64,000 nucleotides of DNA from Centroberyx gerrardi (lineage: Eukaryota; Chordata; Actinopteri; Beryciformes; Berycidae). A model generated the notes under the pieces. The model made no database searches and was not told the origin of the DNA. It saw only the letters and a list, made by a program, of their open reading frames with translations. How positions within the stretch are numbered: position 1 is the first letter of the stretch; every line of letters starts with the position of its first letter. This document shows, in pieces, positions 29,236 through 62,185 of the stretch. Where the stretch lies: assembly GCF_048128805.1 (NCBI RefSeq), contig NC_136002.1, forward strand, positions 34,053,542 through 34,117,541, written 5' to 3'. The position numbers and the translations under genes were made by a program.

Positions 29236-30180
29236 TTATAGTGGTCCTGCCAAAATCCCTCTCTGGATGACTTTTGTAATAGATCTCCTTATCTCTTCTG
29301 TCCTGATCCCGTAAACAAGTGGATGCAGTAATGGAGGGAAAAATATGAACTGTGCTGAAATGAGATGGTTAACATATTTAGACACTGTGCTGTGCCTGTT
29401 GTAGACAACAGAGAAGAGGATGCTCACAGAGAAATTGATGAAGACAATCAAATGCGGGGCACATGTACTTAGCGCTTTCTTCTGGGACTCCTTTGATGCC
29501 CTCAAGCTCACATGTAATATTTTCATATATGACAGCAGGACTAGAAAAAACGGCAAAACCACCAGACTTGCAGTAATGAATAAACCATAAATGTTTCCCA
29601 GGGCACTTTTAACACAGGACAGCTTCACAACCGACAGGTTATCACAGAAAAGCTTGTTGATTACAAACCTGCACAAAGGGAGTTGTGATGTTAGATAAAC
29701 TTGAAAAGACAGAAGGGTGACAGGAATGAAATATACAACAGTCAATAATAGTTTCACTTTGGAAGGCGTTACAATGGTGTGATACTGCAGCGGCTTGCAA
29801 ATTGAGACGTATCTGTCATATGCCATAACAGCCAAGATTGCATAAGCATTCAATGCATACACATTGATAAAAAGCACCTGCAATAAACATCCTCCATAAG
29901 AGATGCTTTGGGCGTCTCTGAGAAGATTGTCCATGACATTAGGACACACAGCTGAGCATCCAATCAGACCGTTCACCGCCAAGTTTAGCAGGAATATGTA
30001 CATTGGCTTGTGTAAGCTAGAATCCATATAAATGACAAGTATCAGAATCAGGTTTGCTAATATAGTAAAGACATAAAGGAAAAAAGTAAGCATGAAGAAG
30101 ACACAGTTTAGTGGGCCTGGGGGATCGTAGGCAGTGAGCAGCACAGCAGTATTTATGAAACTTTGGTTCATATTTCCCAA
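29236..30180 (-). CDS. Odorant receptor OR4, intact single-exon GPCR
   Basis: A 314-residue receptor of a second OR group shared with OR5-7. Marks: LHKPMYIFLLNLA at the TM1/TM2 junction, MAYDRYVSIC at the end of TM3, KALSTCAPH before TM6 and HPLVYGIRT in TM7. In this group HP replaces the more usual NP. It starts MGNMNQS; the second Met (30171) lines up better with OR5-7 and may be the real start. An N-glycosylation site NQS lies just after it. It is clearly diverged from OR5-7 (DPPGPLN against GPPGPYN at TM1 entry), so it is an older paralog. No disabling change. Confidence 0.93.
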   Translation of the reverse strand: MGNMNQSFINTAVLLTAYDPPGPLNCVFFMLTFFLYVFTILANLILILVIYMDSSLHKPMYIFLLNLAVNGLIGCSAVCPNVMDNLLRDAQSISYGGCLLQVLFINVYALNAYAILAVMAYDRYVSICKPLQYHTIVTPSKVKLLLTVVYFIPVTLLSFQVYLTSQLPLCRFVINKLFCDNLSVVKLSCVKSALGNIYGLFITASLVVLPFFLVLLSYMKILHVSLRASKESQKKALSTCAPHLIVFINFSVSILFSVVYNRHSTVSKYVNHLISAQFIFFPPLLHPLVYGIRTEEIRRSITKVIQRGILAGPL

Positions 30181-34499: not shown

Positions 34500-34855
34500 G
34501 ATCGGGATCAAACCTATATTCAAATAAATCACAACATTTGGTAAATACACAGACTGGGAAATTAACACCAGTCAACAGAGAAATGCTGATACATTTTGGC
34601 TGTGGCTGGTAAATTTGTCTATTTTACCAGCCAATTTAGCAGGTAACCAACAATCTTCCAGAGTTTTTTTCTGCATCGTGACAATGAGAATCGGTTGGTA
34701 AACCAGTGAAACAGACTTGTGTATTTTGGAATCCATCAGTCACTTTGGCTGGTGGATGAAAATGTCAGTTATCTGTGCTCTAAATTAATTGTTTGAGATT
34801 ACTGCTGTTATCAATGTTTGTTTGTATAATGGTGTGACAGTTTTAATGTCCCACT

Positions 34856-35788
34856 ATGAACAATTCTGTTTCCACAGTCACTGTCATCTTCACAGTATAT
34901 GGACCACCTGGTCCATATAATTTAGCATTTTTTATATTCATCTTTGTTCTGTACATGTCAATATTGTGTATTAACCTTTTTCTTGTGCTGGTTATTTGTA
35001 TTGAGTCGAGCCTTCACAGACCTATGTACATCCTTTTGGTCAACTTGGCCATAAGTGGAGTGATAGGTAGTTCATCTGTCTGTCCACCTATCATGAAATA
35101 TCTTCTTATGGAAAAGCAGGAAAGTTCTCTTGAAGGATGTTTAACACAGGTATTTTTCAGCAATGTCTATGGCTGCTGGGTGTATTGCATCTTAGCTCTG
35201 ATGGCCTATGACAGATATGTTTCTATTTGTAAGCCCTTGCAGTACCACTCCATAATGACACCTACTAAAGTCAAGCTTTTACTGGCAGTGGTATATTTAA
35301 TTCCATGCTCATTTTCAGCATTCCAGGTATATATGATTTCAAGAATTCAACTGTGCAAACACACAATTAATAAGCTTTTATGTGATAGCAGTGCAGTTGT
35401 GAATCTTTCCTGTGTGAAAAGCACTTTTCTCAGTGTGTATGGTCTACTCTTAGCCACCTGTCTGATTATTCTACCTTTCCTTCTAGTTGTTCTTTCATAT
35501 GTCCATATTTTAATGGTCAGCCTTAAAACCTCAAAGGAGTCTCAAAAGAAAGCATTACGCACATGCACTTCTCATCTAGTGACATTTATTAATTTCTCTG
35601 TAGCCACTTTCTTTGGTGTGATTTATAATCGTTTAAGTCTTAGTCTTCCAAGAGCGGTGAATATATTTATATCTATGCATTTTTTTGTCATTCCTCCTTT
35701 ACTGCATCCAATAATTTATGGTATTAAAACACAAGAGATCTGGCGTAGTATAAACAAAATTGTAAGAAGGAAAATCATACAATTGTGA
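34856..35788 (+). CDS. Odorant receptor OR5, intact single-exon GPCR
   Basis: A 310-residue receptor. It starts MNNSVSTV with an N-glycosylation site. Marks: LHRPMYILL at 54-61, MAYDRYVSIC at 117-125, KALRTCTSH before TM6 and HPIIYGIKT in TM7. Residues 1-152 are identical to OR7, and the upstream 300 bp is almost identical too. From residue 153 onward the two differ at many sites, including the second extracellular loop and TM5. The Ser in CTSH replaces the Pro of CTPH found in OR7. No disabling change. Confidence 0.93.
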   Translation: MNNSVSTVTVIFTVYGPPGPYNLAFFIFIFVLYMSILCINLFLVLVICIESSLHRPMYILLVNLAISGVIGSSSVCPPIMKYLLMEKQESSLEGCLTQVFFSNVYGCWVYCILALMAYDRYVSICKPLQYHSIMTPTKVKLLLAVVYLIPCSFSAFQVYMISRIQLCKHTINKLLCDSSAVVNLSCVKSTFLSVYGLLLATCLIILPFLLVVLSYVHILMVSLKTSKESQKKALRTCTSHLVTFINFSVATFFGVIYNRLSLSLPRAVNIFISMHFFVIPPLLHPIIYGIKTQEIWRSINKIVRRKIIQL

Positions 35789-38769: not shown

Positions 38770-40290
38770 CTATTTTTCCCCGTTTTCCAAGAGCACCCGA
38801 TACATTTTTGATCCCAGTTTGACAATATAGAGCAACCAGTCATTTCCTTTTTTCAGAGCCTGGAAAGTGTTGACTCTTGCATTACAAAACAAGTCACTTG
38901 CACTACACCACCTAGGTATTTTAAGCAATATCCGCATACAATCATTATAGGCAACCTGAAGCTTATGTATGCTCACCTTTTTAAACTTAGCCCACAAGGG
39001 GGCAGTATAGAGAGGAGTGCAATATGCTCTAAAGAGACTTATCTTAACATGGTCTGAACACATGTAGACTTTTCTTGCCAACATGTTAGCTTGAGCATAT
39101 AATATACGGCGCTGCCTATACATGTCATCGTCATCAGACATTTGATCTGTAATGAAGTGCCCCAGATATTTTGTTTTATTACAAACACATAGCACTTGCC
39201 CTGACCAATAAAAATCTGGAAAGTTGAGGTCTTTATCCCGTTTTGTTCTACATATCATGACAACACTCTTTTTAGCATTGTATTGCACATCATGTTTGAT
39301 CCCATAATCAGAACATATATTCAGCAGCTGTTGAAACCCAGCACTGCTCGGAGAAAGAACAGCCAGATCGTCGGCATACATAAGATGGTTTATTAGGGTG
39401 TTACCAATCATACAGCCAGTTTTGCAGCCTCTTAGTTGGTCAGATAAATCATTCATATACACGTTAAAGAGGGCTGGTGAAAGTATCCCCCCCTGTCGTA
39501 CTCCATTACCAACGCCAAAGGGAGCGGAGACTCTATTGCCCCATTTGACCTGCATACTCTGGTTGGCATACCAGTATGCCAAGATTCTTATCATGCTGTC
39601 AGGCACGCCCCTTTGACTCAATTTCATAAACAACTTTTGGTGATTAACTCGGTCAAAAGCCTTAGAGGCATCAATAAAGCTGATTAGAACAGAGGAGTTC
39701 TGCCTTCTGTACATTTCAATTACTTCTTTCACGGCAGAGATACATAAATCAGTACCATGCTTAGCCTTGAAGCCAAACTGGTTGTCTGTGGTACCAATAT
39801 ATTCACATAAACGATCTAATAGAATCCTTTCCAGAACTTTGGATACACACTGGCTAGTGCAATTGGCCTGTAATTATCCAGGCTCCCAACCTTGCCAGCT
39901 TTGTTCTTGATGACAGGCACAAGAGTAACGGACGACATAGAGTCTGGCAACAGTCCATGAGTCATAAGGCCAGTAAAACAAATGGCAAGAAGCGCTGCAA
40001 CTTTGGGCTTGCAAACTTAAGGTGCTCTGCAGTGATTTGATCTAAGCCACTTGCTTTATTATCAGATAGCTGTGCTATTGCTTGATAGACCTCAATGGTT
40101 GTGATTCCCAATGTGTCACTGTTGGCAATATTGTCCACTTTGTAGGGGTCCCTTTTAACACAGTTAAATAAAGCAGAGTAATGTTGCCTCCACAACTCAG
40201 CTATATTATCGGCTCCAGAAACTCCCTCTACAGTGCATGGTAACAATGTGTTGTCCCTGTTCAGAGCTCTCACCTCCTTCCAAAAAGTTT
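38770..40290 (-). mobile_element. LINE fragment with near-intact RT domain
   Basis: The minus strand has a 320-codon open frame (39732-38770) with ISFIDASKAFDRVNH, GVRQGGILSPALFNVYMND, the catalytic LMYADDLAVLSPS and the thumb-region LYAQANMLARKVYMCS, SLFRAYCTPLYTA. Upstream, 40273-39962 has LWRQHYSALFNC and LSDNKASGLDQITAEHLK. The two parts lie in different frames, so at least one frameshift exists. The motif style resembles fish Expander/RTE-like elements. The endonuclease is absent, and the piece ends close to the palindrome boundary at 40295. Confidence 0.8.
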
Positions 40291-40294
40291 AGTC

Positions 40295-40900
40295 AGCTTT
40301 TAAACTAGTCTCTCCTCATTGAACTGGTGTTGACTCGTTTGTCTGCCTGCTGGCCAAAACTGTCTAAAAGATAGGACTTGAACCAGTCGAGAGGTGTTCC
40401 AGTGACACGTACCCAGTGCTCAAGATGGCCAAGGAGGACAGCATGGTCAACTGTATCAAACGCTGCAAGAAGAGCTAGGAGGACCAGAATAGAGGGGAGC
40501 CCTCACCTGATGATAATAAATCGTTCATATCCCTGAAGAGGGAGCAGTTTCAGAACTGTGGTGGGCCCTAAAACCTGACTCAAGTTTTCACTAAAAAAAA
40601 CACAGAATTTTTGAAGGACCTTTGCTAGGAAGGGGAGTCTCAAATTGAAGAGCTGGCTTTTTTAATAGGTTGAACAAGAGCATTTTTGAATGTAGGAACA
40701 GCACCTGTGGAAAGAGAACAATTTATAGCTTGCAGAATAAAAGGACTGACTGTGTTAGAAACTTCTAAAAAACTTCTAAAAAAAAACATTAAACAGCACT
40801 TTGGGGTCGGAATGATTATTCTCAATGAGGTTGGCAAAATAAGCAGATCTGGAATTTTTAACCTCTGCATTATAGCGTTTGATTACATTTGGATGTTAAT
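40295..40900 (-). mobile_element. LINE fragment in left arm
   Basis: Minus-strand translation includes NAEVKNSRSAYFANLIENN (about 40890-40830), VPTFKNALVQPIKKAS (about 40705-40650) and AAFDTVDHAVLLGHLEHW, parts of a fish L2/Rex-like LINE around the RT start. The right-arm counterpart is 55715-56314. The LINE is cut at the arm boundary in both. Confidence 0.7.
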
Positions 40901-41358
40901 ATGATATGAGAATACTGTGATGAGGACATGGGTCATATGAACAGATTGTTTTCTATTAAAGGATACTTGGCTGGAATGGATTATTCTCATAATCAGAGTA
41001 AGGGAAGACATTAATAGGCTATACAAGTAAATATGTGGAGTTGTTGTTTTCTTATAATTTCGAAATCTTATTTGTCACAGATCTGGTGATAATTAGGTAT
41101 GAAGTATTATTAGATGTTAGGGGTAGGGTTTGGGTTAGATCGGTATGAAACAGAAAAGACACAAAAGCACACAAATATACACAAAAAACATGAAAATGTG
41201 ATACATTTGTCACCATGTCAATAATGGTATTTATTGGTAAAGCACAATGGAAACAAACAATTTCTGTAATATATTGTGAAAAGACAGATTCATAGCTGCA
41301 AAGGTAAACAAACTAGTGGTTTGACTTCAATCACTACAGATATGATGGGCAAAACACT

Positions 41359-42291
41359 TCAAAACTGTCTAAATTTCCTTGTTATTATTTTGTATATGCT
41401 ACATCGGATCTCTTGTGTTTTGATACCATAAATTATTGGGTGCAATAAAGGAGGAATGACAACAAAGTTCATAGTTATAAATATATTTACCACTCTTGGA
41501 AGACTAAGACTTAAACGATTATAAATTACACCAAAAAAAGAAGCCACAGAGAAATTAATAAATGTCACCAGGTGAGGAGTGCATGTGCCTAATGCTTTCT
41601 TTTGAGACTCCTTTGAGGTTTTAAGGCTGACTATTAAAATATGAACATACGAAAGAACAACTATAAGAAAAGGTAGAATAATCAGACAGAATATTAAAAA
41701 TAGACCATAGACATTGATAACAGTGCTTTTTTCACAGGAAAGATTCACAACTGCAAGGTTATCACATAAAAGCTTATCAATTGTGTGTTTGCACAGTTGA
41801 ATTCTTGAAGTCAGATATACCTGGACTGCTATAAATGAGCATGGAATTAAATATACCACTGCCAGTTAAAGCTTGACTTTAGTAGGTGTCATTATGGAGT
41901 GGTACTGCAAGGGCTTACAAATAGAAACATATCTGTCATAGGCCATCAGAGCTAAGATGCAATACACCCAGCAGCCATAGACATTGCTGAAAAATACCTG
42001 TGTTAAACATCCTTCAAGAGAACTTTCCTGCTTTTCCATAAGAAGATATTTCATGATAGGTGGACAGACAGATGAACTACCTATCACTCCACTTATGGCC
42101 AAGTTGACCAAAAGGATGTACATAGGTCTGTGAAGGCTCGACTCAATACAAATAACCAGCACAAGAAAAAGGTTAATACACAATATTGACATGTACAGAA
42201 CAAAGATGAATATAAAAAATGCTAAATTATATGGACCAGGTGGTCCATATACTGTGAAGATGACAGTGACTGTGGAAACAGAATTGTTCAT
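41359..42291 (-). pseudogene. Odorant receptor OR6, single nonsense codon
   Basis: Left-arm partner of OR7. It begins MNNSVSTV at 42291 and is identical to OR5 and OR7 for 141 residues, including LHRPMYILL and MAYDRYVSIC. At codon 142 TTA (Leu) has become TAA (41868-41866). The frame then continues without other damage to KFRQF at 41359, with KALGTCTPH and HPIIYGIKT intact. Besides the stop, only seven residues differ from OR7. It may be a very recent or segregating pseudogene; read-through is possible but not evident. Confidence 0.9.
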
Positions 42292-42665
42292 AGTGGGACA
42301 TTAAAACTGTCACACCATTATACAAACAAACATTGATAACAGCAGTAATCTCAAACACTTAATTTAGAGCACAGATAACTGACATTTTCATCCACCAGCC
42401 AAAGTGACTGATGGATTCCAAAATACACAAGTCTGTTTCACTGGTTTACCAACCGATTCTCATTGTCACGATGCAGAAAAAAAACTCTGGAAGATTGTTG
42501 GTTACCTGCTAAATTGGCTGGTAAAATAGACAAATTTACCAGCCACAGCCAAAATGTATCAGCATTTCTCTGTTGACTGGTGTTAATTTCCCAGTCTGTG
42601 TATATGGGTGAATATAGGTTTGATCCCGATCCCCTCCTCCTCTGAACTTGGATCAGGTACTTCCC

Positions 42666-42672
42666 TTTTATA
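42666..42672 (-). promoter_or_regulatory. OR6 TATA box
   Basis: Minus-strand CACTATAAAAGGGAAGTACC, identical to the OR7 leader, about 375 bp upstream of the start codon. The leader downstream has only about three GGA units. Confidence 0.6.
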
Positions 42673-42913
42673 GTGAAGCGATTTATATTCCTGGCTTTTT
42701 TCCTTTGGGCTTCTGACATCAGAATATCATTCAGTTATTCAGTCACAAACTTACTGGATACACAGGTAAAGGTTAGAGGTAAAAAACAAAAAAAGAGTAA
42801 AAAACAGTTTATCCATAGTATTCGCAAAAGTATTCACAAAACCTAGAAATACAAAAGCACTGTCATATTCTTAGCATGCACAACAGTAACATCACTTTGG
42901 TTGCACTACAGCA

Positions 42914-42947
42914 GATAACTTTGCAAATGAACATTTGCAAAGTTATC
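42914..42947. repeat. Near-perfect 34-bp palindrome (left-arm copy)
   Basis: GATAACTTTGCAAATG and its exact reverse complement are separated by two bases. The right arm has the same palindrome at 53621-53654. It contains an ATTTGCAAA octamer-like core on both strands. Confidence 0.85.
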
Positions 42948-42959
42948 ATGCCAAACTTA

Positions 42960-44480
42960 GTGAATTAATTGAAGCGGAAATATGAAAAAAAGATTTAAAT
43001 GAAGGTCTGGATCCCTACAAGATCGATAAAGCTAGTCTACGTCGAGATATGTGAACTAGGAAAACAATCCACAAAAATTGGAAAGCTTTTGTTATTTTCT
43101 TCCCTGGCGTGAAATCAAAGCAAAGACACCACCAGTTTTTAGGTGAAACAAATTTTGGCAGAATTTCTAATGATAAAAGAACGTTAAAAACAGTTCAGGG
43201 GATTACAAAGAATGAAAGTGTTTGTTCATCAAAATTTGGAATCACATGAGAATACATTTTCATGAACATTATGTTGTGTTGTAAAGATAAGGTGCCTCTA
43301 GCACCGTATGCCTTAAAAGCGGGTCGACTATACAAATATTTTGTGTTCCCCATAGTGATAAAAAGATCACTACATTTCATCCCTCAGGTAGGACAGCCAA
43401 AGCGGGGTCTTTTGTGAGTCAAGGTGCAACTGCAGGCAACGGTGCAAGTTCATGGCACTAGCTCACTTGGGTGTGACCAACAGATTTTTAGAAATTTCAG
43501 AACCAGCGGTGCTGGTGCAGCGGGGGCACACCAGTGGTGCAGTTGTAAAAGGGATTGGATTAGCAGGAATACATTATCAGTACGTGTGGTAGGGGCTGGT
43601 GTTAAAGGTTACATTTGTAAAATTTCTGCTTTACTGAAGCATAATATGACTAGTTAATATCAGCTGGTTGCCGAATGGTAGTGAGTGAAACAAAGTGAAC
43701 AGCTGGCACACGGCAGGAGATTTCTGCATTCAAAAACACAGGAGCGGCCAAGCCTTGATTTGTTGCTGTAATGACATCGCTGACAATGGAGGTCAGCATT
43801 GGACCAGAAATTACCCATGGACCCTTTGATCAGGGCTCCCCTTAAATCAGCTCCCCTTATTCCCTTTAAAAGCCATGCGCTCGCCAACTTTTTAAGATGA
43901 ATTCACGATTGTGGAGATAGTGAAATCCTTGTCCAAGACCATTTCTTGCTATATGCAGACTACGCAGGTGCGTTGGGTCCCCGCGACCGCTAGGGGGCCC
44001 TGTTGTGCCATTTTTTTTCTCCTTGAATATAAATGGACACTTTTGGTAACCAAGCGTCCTCATGTGTTGATCTAAAACACATACATTATAAGCTCACAAT
44101 GGCTAAAATAAAATGCATATATTGTATGTTTGATAGATCAATAAGCAGCTTTTCTTCCGAGAGCTCTTTGCTTTACAAGCAAACCAATTTCAAAGTCATC
44201 ATCAGATTCTCACGTATTGATGTACTACGTTGTTGATGGCCTTTGGACAGATTACTATTCAGTATCTCACAGACACACTATGGCGTCCAAAAGGACGTAT
44301 CCTTCGTTTTTATGGAGAATGTATTTCTACCAGTCAGCAATCAGTGTAAAGTTACCTGAACCACTGGCTAGCTAACATTAGCTAGGTACGAGCCAGCTAT
44401 CTAGACGTAGCTAGCTAGCTAACCCTAATACGCATTACGTTTTCAGAGCTGGCTAGGCTAGCTAACATGATCTATGGTAT
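42960..44480. other. Left-arm spacer without a supported gene
   Basis: Short frames of 61-77 codons at 43195-44063 are mirrored identically in the other arm, but conservation at this identity level reflects recent duplication, not selection. The last 100 bp (44370-44470) is rich in TAGC words and self-complementary. Confidence 0.45.
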
Positions 44481-45300
44481 CATGGGGTGCATTCCATTTG
44501 ACCAAAATGCGTCCTCTCCTCCGTCCTCGCATCCTCGTCTCCTCGCTGACTCGGCATCCAAAAATGAGCCGCCATCATGAAGGACGTTCCAGTTGGTCAA
44601 AAAACACATGAAGGATCTTTCACGTCTCCTCGGGTGCATTGTTTTGTGTCTCCTCCTCCTTCTTTGCGACTTCGTCTCCTCGCTGACCCGGCATCCAAAA
44701 ATGAGTGATGTTCCAATTGGTTAAAAGACGCATGAAGGATCCTTCAAGTCTCCTCGCCTCCGTCCTCCAATAAGGCGTGGTCGGAGGATACTCAGGTGTA
44801 TCCTAGGTGTATCCTCAGGTGTAGGTGCGGAAATAATGAGTGAAGTCAATTAACCATTGGCATGTGCGGATATAAGCCCGCCTCCATACCATCAGAAAAC
44901 GTGCGGACATTGGCAGAAAAAAAATTCACAGGTGTAAGTAGCCCCAACTTGTTATATTCTTCAAACAGAAATAGCATAGGTTTTAAATGTTAGCCGAACA
45001 TTTGTTAATGAAGGGTTATACGTTAAATGTTCCTATACTGACAGATCTGTGGTAGTTGTAGGATGTCAAACTTTTCCCAAATAGGCATCAGTAAATGAGC
45101 TTAAGGCTTGAATGTGATTATAGGGACAGAGGAGACGCACCAGCTGATCCTCCAGCGCATAGAGAGGGTGAGTGGGGGGCAAGTAGGTAGAAGGTCTACG
45201 ACCAAAATGTCGCTACATTAAATTGTGATTTGCAAGAGGATGGTGTGCGGGAGCCATATATATTTTTACGTTTTTTTTTTCTCCCAGCACCCATGACTGA
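44481..45300. other. Palindrome spacer: imperfect tandem repeat of unknown family
   Basis: CGTCTCCTCGCTGAC, CGGCATCCAAAAATGAG and CATGAAGGATC phrases occur in the same order twice (about 44545-44635 and 44670-44755), giving a two-unit repeat of about 125 bp. The rest up to 45300 has no gene. It could be the end of a DNA transposon. Confidence 0.4.
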
Positions 45301-47415
45301 GCAAACTTTATTCAATGACTGCGACTGCGTGTCATTCTGCGTGTCACCCTTACACTACTGAGGAAGCCAACAAGCGCTCTGCTGCCCCGAGCAAGAAGTC
45401 ACATACTTCCTGCGTATTCGTGTTTTACACTTGAGTGACGGAATCTACCTGTACCATGCCCCCACTTACCTCGCCACTGAAGTGTAGGAGTTGTCTCAGC
45501 CTAAGCCAAAAGGTTGCTGAACTGGAAAGCAGAATCTCCATTCTCTACCAACTTCAGAAAGAGGAAGAGGTCCTAGACTCTATGGTAGCATCTCTGCATG
45601 GCACAGGTGGCCTCGACTCCACAGTCCCTTGGATGGGGTGCTCCACCAGGCAGAGTAACCCATCACCTCCTCCAGTTCAGGCTGATATGGAGCCATGGGA
45701 AAACCTTGGGGCAAAGCCCAAGTCCTGGCCCTGCTCGACTCCCCGTGCACCTGAGCCCTGGTCCATGGTTGTGGCTGTCAAGCGATATGGAAAATGTAGA
45801 ACAAATTCCCGATCTCCTCCACCTCAAAATTTCCACCTTAGCAACAGGTTCCATGTGTTAGACGGGCTGCCTACATCCAATCCAACCGTAAGCCCCTCTC
45901 CCTCTGCGACTGCTGTCTATCCCCCTGGGATTCCTAGGAACAAAGCCGGGCTTTCAGCTTGCCCCCCCAGGGCTTTCTCCTCCACAGTCAGGACGATCGT
46001 CACCGAGGTCGGGCACTCCGGCCGTCTCGCGGGCCCCTTCGCAGATGCCTCCGCAGTCGGACCGACCAACACCGAGGCCGGGCGGGAAATCTGCCATACG
46101 AGGCGCTGTCTAATCGCGGATGCTGTCTCAGTTAGGCCGTACGGCTGCCTTGCAGGAAACAGCTCCCCCACGGTCATCGGTTCTCCTCCATCCACCCCCA
46201 GCTACCCTGGTCATCGGGGACTCCATCGTCCGGGACATTAGGTACGAACATGCAGTCACACATTCCTTCCCTGGTGCTACAGTGCCCGACATCCTGGAGA
46301 AACTTCCAGGCTTACTAGATAGTTTTTCATCCATTAAGAGAGTGATTGTACATGTGGGCACAAACGACACTAGTCGACAACAGTCTGAGTTGACGAAAGA
46401 TGATTTTATCCGCCTTTTTAATTTCTTGAAAAGTTGTGGAAAATCTGCTTTCATCTCCGGTCCAATCCCCACTTTAGCAGGATTCTTAGCCTCCACACTT
46501 GGCTTCAGTACACATGCAGCACAACCTAGGCTAAATTGACAATTTCAATTTAGTTTGGGATCACTCTTCCTTGTTTGGAAGAGACGGGTTGCACCCAAAC
46601 AAGCTGGGTACTCGCATGCTAGCGGCTAACCTGTTCCACACTATACTGTCTTCCCCACGTGATTGACTGTTTACATCAAATGTCACTTCTTCTACTGTGC
46701 CCACATCTCCTGTTGGCGCAAGCTCCCCCATCACGCCTGGATGTGTCAAAGTGTCTCCCATAACCACTGTCGTCACGGTTCGTAAGTCAGCTAAATATCA
46801 CCCCTCCCGTGTCAATTCCAGAACTCTGATCCATATTCCCTGCAAACGATTGCAGTCTATACAGCCTTCCCCCTGTGGGAAATTTGCACTTTTTAACGCC
46901 AGATCGCTTTTAAATAAGACTTTTATATTGAATGACTTTATTACTTCTACATTCTTTTGACTTGACTCAATTTGTAAATGAGCCTACTCACAAATTTGGT
47001 CACACATTAGATTTAGTGCTATCAAAAAATATTGACATTTATGTTTCAAAAGTTGCTGATATGGCCATCTCTGATCACTTTTGTGTCTCTTTTGATGCTA
47101 CAGTACATCCCACCAAGAATAAGGTTTTGCTTACTGTTAAGAAACATCATCTGGATGCCTCTGCTGTGACTAAGTTTTCTAATATTATAAATCATCCTGA
47201 TAAGTCCCTTCCTTCTGGTGGCTCTATACATGATCTGGTTGATAATTTTAATAGTCAGCTTACAGGTGCACTTGACACCGTTGCACCTTTAAGAGAGAAT
47301 AAACTGTTCTCTAAACATTCTGTCCCTTGGAAAAGCAGCTCTCTCCGTGAATTAAAAAGAGAATGTAGGAAAGCAGACTTAAGCAGACTTATTGAAATGC
47401 AATGGCCTGTATAAT
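45300..47415 (+). mobile_element. L2/CR1-type LINE with esterase-type ORF1, decayed
   Basis: ORF1 starts near 45435 with a Cys-containing N-terminus and a short coiled-coil-like stretch. A Pro/Ser-rich region and then an SGNH esterase domain follow in another frame (46205-46490): LVIGDSIVRDI carries the nucleophile-type GDS and VIVHVGTNDTS the GxND block. ORF2 begins FALFNARSLLNK near 46880, then jumps by internal deletion to FDLTQFVNEPTHKFGHTLDL (about 46955) and SDHFCVSFDA. The element ends without RT. An esterase ORF1 is known from CR1 and zebrafish L2 elements. Confidence 0.75.
45435..46241 (+). pseudogene. LINE ORF1, N-terminal part
   Basis: A 268-codon open frame with CRSCLSLSQKVAELESRISI (CxxC plus a short heptad-like helix), then a low-complexity Pro/Ser/Thr region. 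Family ORF1 proteins continue into an esterase domain. Here that domain is in a different frame from about 46200, so at least one frameshift has broken the ORF. It is not a host gene. Confidence 0.6.
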
Positions 47416-47594
47416 ATGGTCAAATTAATAAAAAGAATTGGCACACTTGTTCCTGTAATTATTATTAGAGGCCATTAGCCTACTAGATGGCATAAATGAC
47501 TATTTATTGAAATGTACTTGGATCGGCCGATCCACTTGATCAAGTACTCAGTACTCGGATCGGTTCTCAAAAAATGGTATCGGTGCGTCCCTAA
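47416..47594. other. Probable DNA-transposon end
   Basis: A GGATCGGCCGATCC palindrome (47520-47533) and GTACTCAGTACTCGGATCGG then TATCGGTGCGTCCCTA (47577-47592) resemble the terminal region of a widespread fish transposon. A related end is at 30925. Confidence 0.4.
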
Positions 47595-48376
47595 TTTTAA
47601 CCGTTTCAGTCTGGTTTTAGATGCTTCCAAAACAGGATTTGGCGCAGTACTATACCATGGAGGGAAACTCTGGGTCATCGCCTACGGGCCAGAACACTGA
47701 CTATATTTACATGGACAGCAATAATCTAATATTAACCTGATTAAAACAATTATTACCTTAACCTGAATAAAGTCATATTCAGAGTAAGCACAATTGCATT
47801 AAGATGATACATGTGGAGTCAGTGCCGGTTCTGACCACCAGGGGGCCTAAGCAAAAACAAAAAAGTGCCACACAGGATAATGACGCTACCGGCTGATGTC
47901 ACCTGTCCGGAGCTAGTTAGTTTGGTTTCATACAGACAGCTTGACACATGGATACAGACCAGCTAACCAGCTAATCGGCATTACCTAGCTAGACAGTGCC
48001 ATATCATTTGCACCTAACTACACCTACTTACAATTAAACACCTGCTAGCTAATTAATGAAAATATTGCTGTCCAAGTAAACGTAGTCACTGTCGCAAAAA
48101 CAAATTGCAACTTGCACTCTCAAGTTACTAGCCTTAAAGTGGACTGTGTGTAGAGAAATTCAGAGATTACCTCTTATATGCGCTCCATTTTAGATCAACA
48201 ATCCTAGAGCTCCCATGAATAGCATTATCTCCAGCTTACTCCACATAGAGCCAAGCAAAGTCTTTGAGTACACACTGGTTTTTGTAAATAATTTCAGCAG
48301 ATTTACACAAGTCTATCCTACCCGAAATAAGTCCGGAAAGACTGCTGCAGAGAGGGACTTTGATGATTTCATCCCT
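47595..48376 (+). mobile_element. Ty3/gypsy fossil pieces (RNase H and integrase)
   Basis: About 100 bp (47595-47697) reads FSLVLDASKTGFGAVLYHGG, the RNase H start. A second piece (48205-48376) reads [20 protein letters not shown] and [11 protein letters not shown], an integrase core segment. About 500 bp of unrelated sequence separates them. This is a fragmentary fossil of a gypsy element unrelated to the Gmr1-like copy at the left of the window. Confidence 0.6.
47700..47815. repeat. MITE-like fragment within the gypsy fossil
   Basis: TATTTACATGGACAGCAATA and the following AATCTAATATTAACCTGATTA stretch resemble a common fish MITE end that starts TTTACATG. The matching right end is not clear. 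Confidence 0.35.
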
Positions 48377-49058
48377 GGGTTTTGTGAATACTTTTGTGAA
48401 TACTATGGATAGGCTGTTTTTCCCACGGCGCAGCTGAGGGCATCACGAGGCAAATTCAGGTCAGTCAGTCATTCAGTCAGTCAGGTAACGCTTAGTGAGA
48501 TGATGCGCTTCGTCAGATGGTCTCTAGAGGGCGTTTTTGACTGTGAGATGCAGTGTTTCCCATACAGAGGCACAAAATCAAAAGTTGGTCAGTGTAAAGG
48601 AATGGATCTAAATCGATCTCTAATGCACCTGATGTCGCATCATGTCATGTCTGTAATTTGGAGATGTACAGACAGCAGACCAGCAGACTGAACTCAGTCC
48701 ACAGACAAAAGTGAAACTTAACATTGCAGTTAGTAACAGGGATTTGCAGACAGTAACTCGTCTTCGCTGCCCTACAAACTTTAACGGTAGGTGATGTCAT
48801 CTTGCGGTAATTAAGTAACGTTAGTGGAATTAGGCAATTTAACCGTGTTGCAGTGCTTCAGTACATAGAATTGAACACACGCCGTGGGTCTGTACAAGAT
48901 CTGTGTTTGTTTACTGTCTTATACAATATATACTGTAAGATAGGCTATAGGAAATATGAGATGCCTGCAATATTTTATGTAATAAAGTATACAATAAAAC
49001 GTCAAAAAAAAATGCCGTGATGACGGTAATAAGGTCAACCCCGCGGTAGGTGTCACAT
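48377..49058. other. Non-coding spacer
   Basis: The first 50 bp (GGTTTTGTGAATAC .. GAATACTATGGATA) recurs in both palindrome arms (near 42800 and 53725), so a small repeat is shared. The stretch 49005-49058 with GCGGTA words belongs to an outer repeat that continues after 49906. No gene seen. Confidence 0.4.
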
Positions 49059-49066
49059 GACCGGGG

Positions 49067-49898
49067 CAGTGTCGGCGCTAGAACAAATATCCAGGGGGGG
49101 CAAGAGGCTTATAGCGGGGGGGGGGCACCAAATTACTGGCAAGTGGCAACGTAGTTGTGCATAGTGAAACCATTCGGTGGTATGCTCCCCAGGAGAAATT
49201 TTTAAGAAAAAAAAACACAAAAATAGTGCATTCTCATCGCTTTCATAATAATCTGACTAAAAACACAAGGAGAAATCGCTTAGCTAAGTTAGGTGTAAAT
49301 AAATGCAAGGACACGCACGTTTTACATTGACCGAAATGTTTTACTCAAAACACACATAAGGTAACACATAACGAGGTCACAGCAAACTGACAACACAGAC
49401 AAAATATCCAAATAATCTCACTGTGTTCGTATTTGCGGACTGAATGTTAAATAAAAAGAACACTCTCCCAGGGGCATGGATTTTCATGGATTTGCATATA
49501 CCAAATAATTACGCCAGTCAGTGGCCAGTATGCACACGATAACAATGTTATTTAGGCCTATACAGGCTTACATAAAAGTTCACTTAAGTAGAAAATGCAT
49601 TACCATTAGAAGAGCTGTAGTCTGTGACTGGAGGTGCTGAATTTGCGCAGCACAAGGTCCTTCCAACTCAAAACATAAAACGTAAAACGACGACGTAAAA
49701 ACGTAAAGCGTTAGGTCAAAGCGTTGTAAAAGCTTTACAGTGGATTTCAGATTTTCAGTCATTTACAATGGATTTCAGACATCGCTAGAGTTACACTGAT
49801 GGGAGAAAACATTGACATGCTTTTATACAAGTGAGGGGGCACAGTGAATGAAGTGGGGGGGCACTGCCCCCTGGTGCCCCCTCGTAAAGCCGACACTG
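49067..49898. mobile_element. Non-autonomous hAT element, 832 bp, with 8-bp target duplication
   Basis: Ends are CAGTGTCGGC and GCCGACACTG, inverted. The flanks are GACCGGGG at 49059-49066 and again at 49899-49906, an exact 8-bp target duplication as expected for hAT. The interior is non-coding with G-runs near both ends (GGGGGGCA type). It sits inside an older repeat (GCGGTAATGCGGTAACCGTC to CAGCCCTAG, 49915-49940). Confidence 0.85.
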
Positions 49899-49906
49899 GA
49901 CCGGGG

Positions 49907-50744
49907 TATTGCGGTAATGCGGTAACCGTCACAGCCCTAGTTGTTGCCTACCAAATTTCCCCTTAAGTAGCTTTAAAAATACTCTTTCCATACTGTAGGA
50001 CAATGTTATATATTCTGTATCTGCTCGTTCCAACACATCATTGAAGCTGTAACTGCTTATACTGAGTGAAATATTAAAACCCAAGATGGCATTTTTTATG
50101 GCTGCGCCATTACATCAAATGGAAAAATCCAGATGTCTTGTGCATCATTTATACATATTTCTATATATATATTACATATTTGGAAACCTTTTGATCTTGA
50201 CTATCATTAAACGTGCATTTAATGATAAACCTGCATGAGGGACCTTAGGGTAGAAATTTATGGACAAGTAAATATTCCCCCCTCCCGTCAACAACCACTG
50301 CCATAACTAAATTGTCAACCTGTGGGAAACACTTAAGGGGTTAAAATGCAAGCTGTTGCTGAATTTACCAGAACACCCTATCAGTTAGTAAAAAAGTCTC
50401 TCTTTTTTGCTGATAAGTAATGCAGAAAGAAATTGCCAGATGTTTGAACGGACCTTCGCCTACCGTTCCCCCATTATTCACATGACATTATTCACCATAA
50501 TCTGGATATAATCTTGGATATGTTTAACACACGCAGTTATATTGTGTGCTTCTCAGGGTTAAGGAGACACGGTCTCTTTAAGAAAGTCTGGTTTTCTGAG
50601 TGACGTCAGCTCGACGTAATGTTGTTGTGTTTTTGGGCAGCGCGATGTAAATAGTCTTGCTCTGTGGGTTTCAAATAAATGACACACGAGTTGGTGTAGT
50701 CAACAAGAGAAGTTATCCGTCTCCACATTCCTGCCACTTCTAGA
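49907..50744. other. Spacer to the right arm; possible solo LTR
   Basis: 49907-49940 is the end of the repeat hosting the hAT element. From about 50560 to 50740, GACACGGTCTCTTTAAG, TTTCAAATAAATGACACACG and TCCGTCTCCACATTCC resemble a fish gypsy LTR, but neither end is clean. No gene is visible. Confidence 0.35.
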
Positions 50745-51195
50745 ATACCATAGATCATGTTAGCTAGCCTAGCCAGCTCTGAAAACGTAATGCGTGTTAG
50801 GGTTAGCTAGCTAGCTAAGTAGATAGCTGGCTCGTACCTAGCTAATGTTAGCTAGCCAGTGGTTCAGGCAACTTTACACCGATTGCTGACTGGTAGAAAT
50901 ACATTCTCCATAAAAACAGGTTATAAGTTTAATTAATATGTCTTGCCTTTGTTGTGCAAGCGTTGTTTTTCCTCGGCTTTCTTCCGTTTTCTTTTTTCAT
51001 TTCCCGAAGGATACGTCCTTTTGGACGCCATAGTGTGTCTGTGAGATACTGAATAGTAATCTGTCCAAAGGCCATCAACAACGTAGTACATCAATACGTG
51101 AGAATCTGATGATGACTTTGAAATTGGTTTGCTTGTAAAGCAAAGAGCTCTCGGAAGAAAAGCTGCTTATTGATCTATCAAACATACAATATATG

Positions 51196-51607
51196 TAGGG
51201 CTGCAGCTATCGATTATTTTAGTAATCGAGTATTCTACCGATTATTCCATCGATTAATCGAGTAATCGGATAAGAAATACTTTTGCTTTATTAAAGAGCA
51301 ATAGTAAATATACAAAAGAGAAAAGCTGTCCATACGACACTGTGGTTTACTGAAAACGAGGTGAAATAATAATTATTATTGATATTTATTACTAGGCCTA
51401 AATATCATACAAGTTCATAAGACTGGCTAATGTACATTTATTTGCTATGTTGAAGGGTTGCCCTACACCTGCTGACCCTACTCACTGCAATCAAACTAAA
51501 CTGAATATACCTGCTGTATTGGACTGGTGCATTTTAGGCTCCAATTGCTACTTACACCACCTGATATTTTGCTTTCTGGGGTATTTTATGCATCACTGTG
51601 AGGGGAG

Positions 51608-51652
<45 letters not shown>

Positions 51653-52444
51653 CTATCATAATAATAACATGAATGAAGCTCAGGCTTTCACAAATTGACT
51701 GCAGCATTTTATTTTCTGTGGTTATTTTCTTGAGCAAAACTTAGCTAACTTAGGGACATCATAACTAGCCACCATATTGATTTACGTTCTTAACTAGCCA
51801 TTACATATAGCCATAATTCACGTGCATTCTTTACTAGCCTTCATCTCATCCCGTTTTAATATTAAGTGCTGACTCCGCCCACCCGGGCCAGTTTCGGCGT
51901 ACGCCGGTAGCAATTACAAGTGGACCCTATCCTACAGTCCCTGCTCTCAGCGGAGGGAGGGAGCTACGCTGTGTGTGGGAAGCGCTGTGATCGTCAGACC
52001 TCTCTGGATTAGACAAGCAAGTAGAGAAAACCGGCATCAGCCGAACCAATTTATTGCCAAATGCTTTGGGATTCAACACATTAACATTGCTTCCCATGGT
52101 CAGAAAAAATCGGCAGATTTGTCGCTAGTCGCTTTTGAGAAATAAAGTCGCCAGGGGGGTCTGAAAAGTCGCTAAGTCTAGCGACAAAGTCGCCAAGTTG
52201 GCAACACTGGATCCGAAACTTTGGACACTTTCTGTCGTTTTCTCTGGCCTGTCTCTTCTCTTCGCCCCTCGCTATTTTCTCTCTCTTTCTCCAGCGCGTT
52301 GTGCAACAGTAATAATCATCCGTGCAAAACACTGAGTGTGTATATAGTTATATGGATTAAACGAAGCTTCGATGCAAAGAATTTGCATCGATGATTTTTA
52401 GTAATCGAGTTACTCGAGTTTCTCGAGGAATCGTTTCAGCCCTA
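51196..52444. mobile_element. hAT element, 1,249 bp, with 8-bp target duplication and preserved empty site
   Basis: Ends are TAGGGCTGCAGC and TTTCAGCCCTA with sub-terminal TAATCGAGTA/ACTCGAGT words. The flanks are AATATATG at 51188-51195 and 52445-52452. The left arm (about 44110-44130) shows the uninterrupted target with a single AATATATG. No transposase is visible. The interior has a GT microsatellite (51610-51651) and a GTCGC-rich patch near 52120-52200. Confidence 0.9.
51610..51651. repeat. GT dinucleotide microsatellite
   Basis: About 21 GT units inside the hAT element. The Cys/Val-repeat frame across it is an artefact. Confidence 0.95.
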
Positions 52445-52452
52445 AATATATG

Positions 52453-53620
52453 CATTTTATTTTAGCCATTGTGAGCTTATAATGTATGTGTTTTAGATCA
52501 ACACATGAGGACGCTTGGTTACCAAAAGTGTCCATTTATATTCAAGGAGAAAAAAAATGGCACAACAGGGCCCCCTAGCGGTCGCGGGGACCCAACGCAC
52601 CTGCGTAGTCTGCATATAGCAAGAAATGGTCTTGGACAAGGATTTCACTATCTCCACAATCGTGAATTCATCTTAAAAAGTTGGCGAGCGCATGGCTTTT
52701 AAAGGGAATAAGGGGAGCTGATTTAAGGGGAGCCCTGATCAAAGGGTCCATGGGTAATTTCTGGTCCAATGCTGACCTCCATTGTCAGCGATGTCATTAC
52801 AGCAACAAATCAAGGCTTGGCCGCTCCTGTGTTTTTGAATGCAGAAATCTCCTGCCGTGTGCCAGCTGTTCACTTTGTTTCACTCACTACCATTCGGCAA
52901 CCAGCTGATATTAACTAGTCATATTATGCTTCAGTAAAGCAGAAATTTTACAAATGTAACCTTTAACACCAGCCCCTACCACACGTACTGATAATGTATT
53001 CCTGCTAATCCAATCCCTTTTACAACTGCACCACTGGTGTGCCCCCGCTGCACCAGCACCGCTGGTTCTGAAATTTCTAAAAATCTGTTGGTCACACCCA
53101 AGTGAGCTAGTGCCATGAACTTGCACCGTTGCCTGCAGTTGCACCTTGACTCACAAAAGACCCCGCTTTGGCTGTCCTACCTGAGGGATGAAATGTAGTG
53201 ATCTTTTTATCACTATGGGGAACACAAAATATTTGTATAGTCGACCCGCTTTTAAGGCATACGGTGCTAGAGGCACCTTATCTTTACAACACAACATAAT
53301 GTTCATGAAAATGTATTCTCATGTGATTCCAAATTTTGATGAACAAACACTTTCATTCTTTGTAATCCCCTGAACTGTTTTTAACGTTCTTTTATCATTA
53401 GAAATTCTGCCAAAATTTGTTTCACCTAAAAACTGGTGGTGTCTTTGCTTTGATTTCACGCCAGGGAAGAAAATAACAAAAGCTTTCCAATTTTTGTGGA
53501 TTGTTTTCCTAGTTCACATATCTCGACGTAGACTAGCTTTATCGATCTTGTAGGGATCCAGACCTTCATTTAAATCTTTTTTTCATATTTCCGCTTCAAT
53601 TAATTCACTAAGTTTGGCAT
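52453..53620. other. Right-arm spacer without a supported gene
   Basis: Mirror of 42950-44110. Short frames at 52505-53373 are identical to the left-arm ones and have no recognisable domain. Confidence 0.45.
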
Positions 53621-53654
53621 GATAACTTTGCAAATGTTCATTTGCAAAGTTATC
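53621..53654. repeat. Near-perfect 34-bp palindrome (right-arm copy)
   Basis: Same GATAACTTTGCAAATG palindrome as at 42914-42947. Confidence 0.85.
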
Positions 53655-53949
53655 TGCTGTAGTGCAACCAAAGTGATGTTACTGTTGTGCATGCTAAGAA
53701 TATGACAGTGCTTTTGTATTTCTAGGTTTTGTGAATACTATGGATAAACTGTTTTTTACTCTTTTTTATTTTTACCGCACATAGCAACATCAGCTGAAAA
53801 ACTTTGAGCACACTCAAGGTTGGCAAGTTGTCAAAATGTATTCTTCTTAACTTTACCTGTGTATCCAGTAAGTTTGTGACTGAATAACTGAATGATATTC
53901 TGATGTCAGAAGCCCAAAGGAAAAAAGCCAGGAATATAAATCGCTTCAC

Positions 53950-53956
53950 TATAAAA
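53950..53956 (+). promoter_or_regulatory. OR7 TATA box
   Basis: CACTATAAAAGGGAAGTACC in the leader block shared with OR5 and OR6, about 375 bp upstream of the OR7 start codon. GATATTCTGATGTCAG about 50 bp upstream is conserved in all three copies and may be a factor site. Confidence 0.6.
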
Positions 53957-54330
53957 GGGAAGTACCTGATCCAAGTTCAGAGGAGGAGGGGATCGGGATC
54001 AAACCTATATTCACCCATATACACAGACTGGGAAATTAACACCAGTCAACAGAGAAATGCTGATACATTTTGGCTGTGGCTGGTAAATTTGTCTATTTTA
54101 CCAGCCAATTTAGCAGGTAACCAACAATCTTCCAGAGTTTTTTTTCTGCATCGTGACAATGAGAATCGGTTGGTAAACCAGTGAAACAGACTTGTGTATT
54201 TTGGAATCCATCAGTCACTTTGGCTGGTGGATGAAAATGTCAGTTATCTGTGCTCTAAATTAAGTGTTTGAGATTACTGCTGTTATCAATGTTTGTTTGT
54301 ATAATGGTGTGACAGTTTTAATGTCCCACT

Positions 54331-55263
54331 ATGAACAATTCTGTTTCCACAGTCACTGTCATCTTCACAGTATATGGACCACCTGGTCCATATAATTTAG
54401 CATTTTTTATATTCATCTTTGTTCTGTACATGTCAATATTGTGTATTAACCTTTTTCTTGTGCTGGTTATTTGTATTGAGTCGAGCCTTCACAGACCTAT
54501 GTACATCCTTTTGGTCAACTTGGCCATAAGTGGAGTGATAGGTAGTTCATCTGTCTGTCCACCTATCATGAAATATCTTCTTATGGAAAAGCAGGAAAGT
54601 TCTCTTGAAGGATGTTTAACACAGGTATTTTTCAGCAATGTCTATGGCTGCTGGGTGTATTGCATCTTAGCTCTGATGGCCTATGACAGATATGTTTCTA
54701 TTTGTAAGCCCTTGCAGTACCACTCCATAATGACACCTACTAAAGTCAAGCTTTTACTGGCAGTGGTATATTTAATTCCATGCTCATTTATAGCAGTCCA
54801 GGTATATCTGACTTCAAGAATTCAACTGTGCAAACACACAATTGATAAGCTTTTATGTGATAACCTTGCAGTTGTGAATCTTTCCTGTGAAAAAAGCACT
54901 GTTATCAATGTCTATGGTCTATTTTTAATATTCTGTCTGATTATTCTACCTTTTCTTCTAGTTGTTCTTTCATATATCCATATTTTAATGGTCAGCCTTA
55001 AAACCTCAAAGGAGTCTCAAAAGAAAGCATTAGGCACATGCACTCCTCACCTGGTGACATTTATTAATTTCTCTGTGGCTTCTTTTTTTGGTGTAATTTA
55101 TAATCGTTTAAGTCTTAGTCTTCCAAGAGCGGTAAACATATTTATATCTATGAACTTTGTTGTCATTCCTCCTTTATTGCATCCAATAATTTATGGTATC
55201 AAAACACAAGAGATCCAATGTAGCATATACAAAATAATAACATGGAAATTTAGACAGTTTTGA
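54331..55263 (+). CDS. Odorant receptor OR7, intact single-exon GPCR
   Basis: A 310-residue receptor, the intact right-arm partner of OR6. It has LHRPMYILL at 54-61, MAYDRYVSIC at 117-125, KALGTCTPH before TM6 and HPIIYGIKT in TM7. It is identical to OR5 over residues 1-152. Downstream it shares the OR6 version of the second extracellular loop (IDKLLCDNLAVVNLSCEKS), but matches OR5 against OR6 at several later sites (FLLVVLSY, HILMVSLK, PRAVNIFIS). That mosaic suggests gene conversion. No disabling change. Confidence 0.93.
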   Translation: MNNSVSTVTVIFTVYGPPGPYNLAFFIFIFVLYMSILCINLFLVLVICIESSLHRPMYILLVNLAISGVIGSSSVCPPIMKYLLMEKQESSLEGCLTQVFFSNVYGCWVYCILALMAYDRYVSICKPLQYHSIMTPTKVKLLLAVVYLIPCSFIAVQVYLTSRIQLCKHTIDKLLCDNLAVVNLSCEKSTVINVYGLFLIFCLIILPFLLVVLSYIHILMVSLKTSKESQKKALGTCTPHLVTFINFSVASFFGVIYNRLSLSLPRAVNIFISMNFVVIPPLLHPIIYGIKTQEIQCSIYKIITWKFRQF

Positions 55264-55714
55264 AGTGTTTTGCCCATCATATCTGTAGTGATTGAAGTCA
55301 AACCACTAGTTTGTTTACCTTTGCAGCTATGAATCTGTCTTTTCACAATATATTACAGTAATTGTTTGTTTCCATTGTGCTTTACCAATAAATACCATTA
55401 TTGACATGGTGACAAATGCATCACATTTTCGTGTTTTTTGTGTGTATTTGTGTGCTTTTGTGTCTTTTCTGTTTCATACCGATCTAACCCAAACCCTCCC
55501 CCTAACATCTAATAATACTTAAATAAAGTTTCGAAAATTAGATTTCGAAATTATAAGAAAACAACAACCCCACATATTTACTTGTATAGCCTATTAATGT
55601 CTTCCCTTACTCTGATTATGAGAATAATCCATTCCAGCCAAGTATCCTTTAATAGAAAACAATCTGTTCATATGACCCATGTCCTCATCACAGTATTCTC
55701 ATATCATATTAACA
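55264..55714. other. 3' flank of OR7
   Basis: AT-rich, mirrored in the left arm at about 40900-41358. No gene. Confidence 0.45.
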
Positions 55715-56314
55715 TCCAAATGTAATCAAACGCTATAATGCAGAGGTTAAAAACTCCAGATCTGCTTATTTTGCCAACCTCATTGAGAATAATCATTCCG
55801 ACCCCAAAGTGCTGTTTAATGTTTTTTTTTTAGAAGTTTTTTAGAAGTTTCTAACACAGTCAGTCCTTTTATTCTGCAAGCTATAAATTGTTCTCTTTCC
55901 ACAGGTGCTGTTCCTACATTCAAAAATGCTCTTGTTCAACCTATTAAAAAAGCCAGCTCTTCAATTTGAGACTCCCCTTCCTAGCAAAGGTCCTTCAAAA
56001 ATTCTGTGTTTTTTTTAATGAAAACTTGAGTCAGGTTTTAGGGCCCACCACAGTTCTGAAACTGCTCCCTCTTCAGGGATATGAACGATTTATTATCATC
56101 AGGTGAGGGCTCCCCTCTATTCTGGTCCTCCTAGCTCTTCTTGCAGCGTTTGATACAGTTGACCATGCTGTCCTCCTTGGCCATCTTGAGCACTGGGTAC
56201 GTGTCACTGGAACACCTCTCGACTGGTTCAAGTCCTATCTTTTAGACAGTTTTGGCCAGCAGGCAGACAAACGAGTCAACACCAGTTCAATGAGGAGAGA
56301 CTAGTTTAAAAGCT
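55715..56314 (+). mobile_element. LINE fragment in right arm
   Basis: NAEVKNSRSAYFANLIENN (about 55735), VPTFKNALVQPIKKAS (about 55910) and AAFDTVDHAVLLGHLEHW (about 56140) mark an L2/Rex-like LINE around the RT start. It ends at the arm boundary. Mirror copy at 40295-40900. Confidence 0.7.
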
Positions 56315-57600
56315 TTAATGAATCAAAACATTGATCAAAACTTTGGCGTAGACTCCATCTGAAGCTATTCCTGATTACGGGAAGAAGAACCCCATAAATG
56401 GGCCAAAAATGATGAAACGCCTCCTGGGGCTGAAGATATACAGTATCTCTGCATGGGTATCTAAATGGAGCCTTGATGCTGGTAGGGGAGGGGGGGAGGG
56501 GGGGGGGCGCAACTGAAATGATGGCAACATACAGAAACAGTTGGGGGCCTCGTTCAAAGCTTGCACCGTAGCAAAACAGTTTTCCGGGTTTTGCTCCCAA
56601 CATTGTTAAACGTTTTGCAGCAGTCTTTGTGGTCCATTTGATCCCGTTCTGGGTGAGTCTGGCTACGTACAAATGCTCAGAGAATTCTTCAGGAGGACGC
56701 ACAGAATCGCCTTCCCAGCCAGCACAACAACCTCTAACAAATGCTTTGCAAAAGGATGTTGCAAAACACACTACCATTTACTTTTAAACTTCCTGTTTGC
56801 TATGTGTTGGGGCTACTGAACGTGACACTGATTGAGGTAATAAAGTGTGCATCGATTTGTGATTGGTTCCCGAATGGGTGTGAGAAAACCAGGGCCTCGA
56901 TGGCCACCTGGGGGCCACTGGAAGATATAATCAGGGGTATCAGTGGAACGCACAAAAGAGACTGTTTGGCCAAGCATGAGCGAGGACATCCATCCCAACT
57001 GTGGTGCAGTGCTCTAACCAAAGTGCTAGCAATCTAGGAATCCTAACTGTGGCCATACCACAGAATCCATTTCAGAATGTCTAGTGTTCTGGGGGGCAAT
57101 GGCTAACTAGTTGGGTAACCAGGCTGGTATTCCCACACTAGCTCATTAGAAGGGTAACTCTTTGGCTGGACGGGGCCGTTGGTCAACAGTTACGCAGGTA
57201 GGCTGGCTATCTAACTTCAGCTAGCTAGTCTGTGAAATCTGAGCGACATCTGTGGCCGGACCACAGAATGTGATTTGGAATGTCTAGCGGTTGGACAAAT
57301 TTTTTGAAAAATAACAGCTAGCTAATTAAGGTGGCAGGCATGCTGGTGAGCAAGCCATCACAAGACAAAACGTTCAAAGTCCTCCATCATAGGAAAGGCA
57401 AGGTAGGATACCTCATCAATCACAGCCTTAGAGGGTGAAGAACACACTCTGACTGTAGTCACAGGTGTGTGGACAGACTTGGATATTATTAACTGAAATT
57501 CAGGAGTGGACAACACAAGAAGGACCCTCCCTTCTCTTTCTCCCTCTCTCCCATTCTCCCTTCTTTCTCCTGTCCAACCAGAGCTAGCCAATGTTTGCTA
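56315..57600. other. Non-coding spacer
   Basis: A G-run lies near 56485-56510. Frames such as 56301-56777 (minus) and 56741-57037 show no domain. GCTAGCTA words occur near 57220 and 57310. Nothing assignable. Confidence 0.4.
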
Positions 57601-62184: not shown

Positions 62185-62185
62185 G

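Follow-up and report, generated by a model that had tools for sequence, protein, structure and literature searches.

Fold-back inverted duplications in humans carry spacers between the two copies. Among the sequenced junctions described in PMC3907307, spacers were present at 21 of 21, and 20 of these 21 were shorter than 15 kb. The reported lengths range from 766 to 70,466 bp, with a median of 3,428 bp (PMC3907307). A second model for inverted variants is given in PMC10766186. Here we describe an inverted repeat of olfactory receptor sequences in the fish Centroberyx gerrardi, found within a window of 64,000 nucleotides (C6:34053542-34117541) of a genome assembly that comprises 278 contigs and 778,876,752 bases. 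As in the human fold-back class (PMC3907307), inverted copies lie around a kilobase-scale single-copy spacer, which is 6.3 kb long at this locus and ∼3.4 and ∼3.2 kb long at two other receptor palindromes of the same genome. In contrast to the human cases, which are described in that source as large, found in patients and located beside terminal deletions or other rearrangements, the copies at this locus span a few kilobases, are interstitial and are old enough for up to ∼2% divergence.

A review (PMC1995454) treats gene conversion and mosaic receptors in receptor clusters as established, as does PMC3464592. For fish receptor families, the text of PMC1325023 raises conversion only as a possibility, and PMC6588630 notes possible conversion events among the OlfC receptors of catfish. 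The present locus is like the mosaics of the review in that tracts are common to neighbouring receptors, including a recent pseudogene, and is unlike them in that one pair sits in inverted arms (PMC1995454). It is also like the sex-chromosome palindromes that undergo arm-to-arm conversion (PMC3403216), which are inverted repeats with homogenised stretches. Unlike those palindromes, however, the arms described here are patchy (0 to 2.3% different) and one gene copy is broken. Among the open-licence literature matches listed, we noticed none that deals with palindromes in the receptor clusters of fish.

The history that we consider likely for this locus is a recent inverted segmental duplication within an olfactory receptor cluster, followed by gene conversion, a stop codon and the insertion of a hAT-like element. 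The segment at 50745-56314, then still without the hAT-like insertion, would have been copied into 40295-44480 in reversed orientation, so that the copies lay 6.3 kb apart. The copies then would have diverged by ∼2%, and interlocus gene conversion would have homogenised ∼2.4 kb on the inner side of the arms, as well as a 770-bp tract (the upstream side and codons 1-153) shared with a nearby third receptor copy (c3). Later, the arm 1 receptor would have gained its stop codon and a young hAT-like element would have entered arm 2. Inverted copies that lie a few kilobases apart fit template switching or fold-back repair, either of which may have been the physical mechanism. This is a known kind of event and ordinary for the olfactory receptor family, but it is easily readable here: the locus is a compact record of a receptor gene duplicated in reverse, homogenised with its neighbours and broken in one copy. 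The alternative explanations weighed below and this history are not all mutually exclusive, and their probabilities need not add up to unity.

Structure of the inverted repeat

The principal features are as follows (ORF, open reading frame; aa, amino acids).

40295..44480, minus strand: arm 1, probably the inserted inverted copy (inverted match to 50745-56314; dispersed repeats stop at both edges)
44481..50744, no strand: spacer of 6,264 bp, in which dispersed repeat R1 continues (49952-50472) and a high-copy element of 259 bp lies at 50484-50742
50745..56314, plus strand: arm 2, carrying a hAT-like insertion and probably the resident copy (its edges are crossed by dispersed repeats R1 and R2)
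41359..42291, minus strand: olfactory receptor pseudogene in arm 1, 933 bp, with one nonsense codon (the TAA inside is also seen in the genome search)
54331..55263, plus strand: intact olfactory receptor gene in arm 2, 310 aa (ORF; Pfam 7tm_4, E = 1.3e-47)
34856..35788, plus strand: third receptor copy (c3), intact, 310 aa (ORF; Pfam 7tm_4, E = 6e-48)
29236..30171, minus strand: receptor of next highest similarity recovered from the genome, at 59% protein identity (ORF, Pfam and protein search)
51196..52444, minus strand: hAT-like element, 1,249 bp, present in arm 2 and not in arm 1 (the 8-bp duplication CATATATT lies on either side)

Self-BLAST of the window yields inverted matches at exactly 40295-44480 and 50745-56314. 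A first-pass annotation had described these arms as reverse complements over more than 4 kb around a 6.3-kb spacer, and this description is correct: the arms carry 42 mismatches over 4,158 aligned bases, and the spacer measures 6,264 bp. The match is returned as four pieces, which pair 40295-42777 with 56314-53845 (98.27%), 42778-44123 with 53776-52445 (98.89%), 44116-44306 with 51195-51005 (100%) and 44306-44480 with 50917-50745 (96.57%). Chance resemblance is excluded by the length and identity of the arms.

For base-by-base comparison, the arms were aligned as three pieces placed around the large insertions. Two short scrambled patches, at 41069-41101 and 42772-42788, contain 18 of the 42 mismatches. 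The alignment also has gaps of 1, 14, 66, 12 and 2 bp, and arm 2 alone carries the 1,249-bp insertion and a stretch of 88 bp (50917-51004) that is without counterpart in arm 1. The unequal lengths of the arms are mainly due to these last two segments. At a seam located at 42767-42788 in arm 1 and 53776-53857 in arm 2, the arms differ by the 66-bp gap and scrambled bases. The similarity of the arms to c3 ends at 42765/53857, within ∼20 bp of this seam.

A near full-length Pfam 7tm_4 domain in an open frame is present in the arm 2 receptor and in c3. The arm 1 receptor has the same length as these two copies and is interrupted by TAA at codon 142 (position 41867), where both other copies have TTA. 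Thus, the earlier description of an olfactory receptor gene in each arm applies to arm 2, whose gene is intact, and not to arm 1. The accompanying suggestion that the palindrome could preserve receptor alleles fails for arm 1, which carries the nonsense codon inside the tract shared with c3.

Probable exchange between the arms and with other receptors

The two segments that are most relevant to exchange are given here.

41868..44342, no strand: inner, homogenised stretch of the arms (free of substitutions apart from the scrambled patch 42772-42788)
34545..35314, plus strand: 770-bp putative conversion tract common to c3 and both arms (c3 differs from arm 2 at 2 places and from arm 1 at 3)

Substitutions between the arms are unevenly distributed. 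None occur in 41868-42771 or in 42789-44342, compared with 17 in 758 bp (2.2%) over 41111-41868, 4 in 174 bp (2.3%) over 44307-44480 and 3 in 766 bp (0.4%) over 40295-41060. The homogenised part does contain gaps of 66, 12 and 88 bp and the hAT site. When each scrambled patch is counted as one event, to give 26 events in total, the longest event-free gap between the arms is equalled in 36 of 200,000 random placements. This pattern, in which identity comes in tracts and is not evenly spread, supports arm-to-arm gene conversion as read from one genome.

A different explanation is that the arms are very young and that the diverged patches came in by conversion from another receptor, with no need for arm-to-arm exchange. 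Most of the differences are indeed packed into ∼800 bp around the 3′ half of the receptor, which speaks for this explanation. However, it is rather unlikely. The innermost 174 bp of the arms differ by 2.3% too, and no other copy close enough to act as a donor was found among the candidates scored. A protein search of the genome recovers the three copies at 100, 97 and 91% identity and the receptor at 29236-30171 at 59%, and all other receptor matches listed are at or below 42% (119 listed; 128 of 315 candidates scored). With no further close receptor copy among these candidates or among those of a DNA search (40 of 372 scored), no other conversion donor was found.

Conversion appears to have reached beyond the arms. 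Within the 770-bp tract, c3 and arm 2 differ by a 1-bp gap in a T run and one substitution, to which arm 1 adds the stop codon. Codons 1-153 of c3 are the same as those of arm 2, and are the same as those of arm 1 apart from that codon. The sequences diverge on both sides of the tract. Upstream (34313-34544) there are 16 substitutions and two gaps, of 53 and 17 bp (∼10% of aligned bases), and downstream (35315-35810) there are 63 substitutions (∼13%). In the comparison of c3 with arm 2, a stretch this long with no more than one substitution arises in 0 of 200,000 random placements. Synonymous changes are absent from the 101.7 sites of codons 1-153 (synonymous divergence, dS, of 0), and 21 are found in the 106.7 sites of codons 154-310 (dS of 0.228).

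Since both flanks of the shared tract are diverged, a conversion tract fits these data and a single unequal crossover does not; the latter was therefore rejected. Purifying selection was rejected as the cause of the shared tract on the grounds that the upstream non-coding sequence and the synonymous sites are likewise near-identical or identical. At the 12 receptor sites that differ between the arms, c3 has the arm 2 base at 8 and the arm 1 base at 4. The 5′ flank of c3 also includes an (AGG)21 run at 34437-34499, and the corresponding run in the arms is 53 bp shorter.

Mosaic patterns are also seen in three receptors that lie in direct orientation, at 5647-6570, 14660-15577 and 23279-24199. 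When the third of these is compared with the other two, 50-bp stretches range from 0 to ∼40% different. Out of 200,000 random placements, 5 and 455 equal the longest identical run in the two pairs that include this receptor, and 4,342 equal that of the closest pair. Purifying selection may contribute to these mosaics, in which coding sequence alone was compared. For gene-conversion mosaics in receptor clusters, the review mentioned above cites Sharon et al. 1999.

The first-pass annotation had held that palindromes of this size promote arm-to-arm conversion. The clustered substitutions support the exchange itself. The palindrome is not needed for it, since c3 shares its tract from outside the palindrome and the direct-orientation receptors are mosaic. 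Conversion in this receptor cluster thus does not seem to depend on inverted orientation.

The hAT-like element offers an indication of relative timing. Arm 1 retains the exact empty site at 44116-44123, and the element in arm 2 is bordered by a target site duplication of 8 bp and shares its ends with copies dispersed in the genome. Among the 40 of 1,550 candidates scored, 38 are other near-full-length copies at 92-98% identity. From the ends of the element and the length of its duplication, we take it to be of the hAT type. The element sits inside the homogenised stretch and so probably inserted after the last exchange there. Similarly, the arm 1 stop codon borders the homogenised stretch and is located inside the tract shared with c3, and so probably arose later than the last exchange.

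Direction of copying and reality of the repeat

Two dispersed repeats at the arm edges bear on which arm is the copy.

43939..44485, no strand: dispersed repeat R1, ending at the inner edge of arm 1 (repeat copies elsewhere in the genome)
56283..56543, no strand: dispersed repeat R2, lying across the outer edge of arm 2 (arm 1 has the first ∼32 bp only)

R1 passes through the inner edge of arm 2, running from 51187 to 50745 and, after the 259-bp element, from 50472 to 49952. This element, which interrupts R1 and has 24 listed copies, separates two parts that adjoin each other in 12 of the 15 R1 copies listed (40 of 500 candidates scored). Two of these copies (L004 and L005) show both parts side by side, confirming the continuation. 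In arm 1, R1 terminates at 44480-44485. Arm 1 also has a gap of about 88 bp relative to L004, L005 and a third copy (L008), which indicates that the 88 bp found in arm 2 alone were probably lost from arm 1. At the other end, 12 of the 14 R2 matches listed cross position 56314 (40 of 110 candidates scored); 8 of these begin at 56283-56287 and 4 at 56305-56308. No BLAST match between the outer flanks of the two arms was found within the window. Because the repeats run on beyond arm 2 at each end but break off where arm 1 begins and ends, the resident sequence is probably arm 2 and the inserted copy arm 1.

Several points weigh against this polarity or against the proposed history as a whole. The portion of R2 inside the arm is only ∼32 bp, which leaves little sequence from which to read the polarity of the outer edge; among the 12 crossing R2 matches, 4 overlap the arm by only 7-10 bp. 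The inner edge of arm 2 is not clean, in that the 259-bp element substitutes for ∼100 bp of R1, and this replacement falls no more than 5 bp away from the breakpoint of arm 1. A young duplication could partly account for how nearly identical the inner arms are. Finally, structure and history are both read from one assembly of one individual.

It is very unlikely that the repeat is an assembly artefact created by joining two haplotypes, one of them inverted, end to end, and we do not favour this explanation. The arms do differ by only 1-2%, as alleles could, and receptors on contig C101 score the same as receptors on contig C11, which suggests that uncollapsed haplotypes may exist elsewhere in the genome. 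However, the window contains no N, the flanks outside the two arms differ, and the repeats stop on one side only. Moreover, no third full-length copy of the arm core was among the candidates scored: full-length genome matches to 42800-44100 are the two arms only, and the remaining matches listed are short pieces (40 of 867 candidates scored). The outer arm (40295-41330) likewise has full-length matches in the two arms only (25 of 25 candidates scored), and the receptor stretch has one further near-full-length match, which is c3 (40 of 372 candidates scored).

Other receptor palindromes and minor observations

Two more receptor palindromes were found on contig C10, which was searched where similar receptors lay on opposite strands and hence does not represent a random sample. 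The first has 12.9-kb arms (C10:2711457-2724319 and 2727745-2740602) with 55 mismatches and 13 gaps over 12,810 aligned positions. Each arm holds a 315-aa receptor ORF, and another receptor lies in the ∼3.4-kb spacer. Receptors located beyond the arms, at C10 2709496 (minus) and 2741517 (plus), suggest that the mirrored order extends outward. The other palindrome has 3.6-kb arms (C10:2629766-2633369 and 2636600-2640147) that are 96.3% identical, with a ∼3.2-kb spacer and open 343-aa receptor ORFs in both arms. Two receptors of similar score are present nearby, at C10 2649130 (plus) and 2656745 (minus). Three receptor palindromes in one genome allow inverted pairs to be compared with direct pairs, to see whether conversion is more frequent in the former.

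Receptor clusters showed no surplus of oppositely oriented neighbours: of 75 neighbour pairs, 58 are parallel and 17 opposite. This count used 83 of the 119 protein-match rows listed, leaving out 9 rows from C101, 9 short or broken, 12 weak, and 6 receptors at C11:12.48-12.52 Mb. Among vertebrate tandem genes, 72-94% of neighbours are reported to be parallel (PMC2547482); the receptor value lies inside this range, and inverted neighbours therefore are not in excess. Receptors on C101 have scores equal to one at C11:1.48-1.62 Mb, and possibly represent an uncollapsed haplotype or a further tandem array.

A more speculative proposal, to which we give little credence, is that receptor clusters of this genome repeatedly form palindromes, and that exchange in this receptor subfamily takes in the 5′ half of the genes and their upstream side but leaves codons 154-310 to diverge. 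If this were true, promoters and front halves would stay alike across the cluster, and variation would be left to the back halves of its receptors. Very unlikely, too, is the view, built on the first-pass annotation, that selection keeps the palindrome as a device for preserving or spreading receptor alleles and flipping the spacer: exchange between the arms is likely and two other receptor palindromes exist, but exchange also involves a copy outside the palindrome and genes in direct orientation, the receptor of one arm is broken, and the 58 of 75 parallel neighbours fall within the vertebrate tandem range (PMC2547482).

Pfam searches at E 0.01 gave no match in the spacer (six frames of 44124-50744, with X at stops) or in 40001-41350 (six frames), and 40295-40560 had none at E 1 (three minus frames). 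This last segment shows a 31-residue similarity (52%) to a reverse transcriptase ORF of the window, with E = 7.7e-5 in a very small database. Rfam returned nothing at gathering score, the tRNA search found none, and E. coli genomes gave no match.

Elsewhere in the window, a 271-bp stretch at 61914-62184 matches its own reverse complement at 84%. It overlaps the start of a receptor ORF (62053-62856) whose 7tm_4 match begins at profile position 80. An unbroken 973-aa ORF at 1670-4591 encodes integrase domains ahead of reverse transcriptase and RNase H. This order is unlike that of the usual Ty3/Gypsy elements, and an integrase-first order is a feature of Gmr1-like elements.

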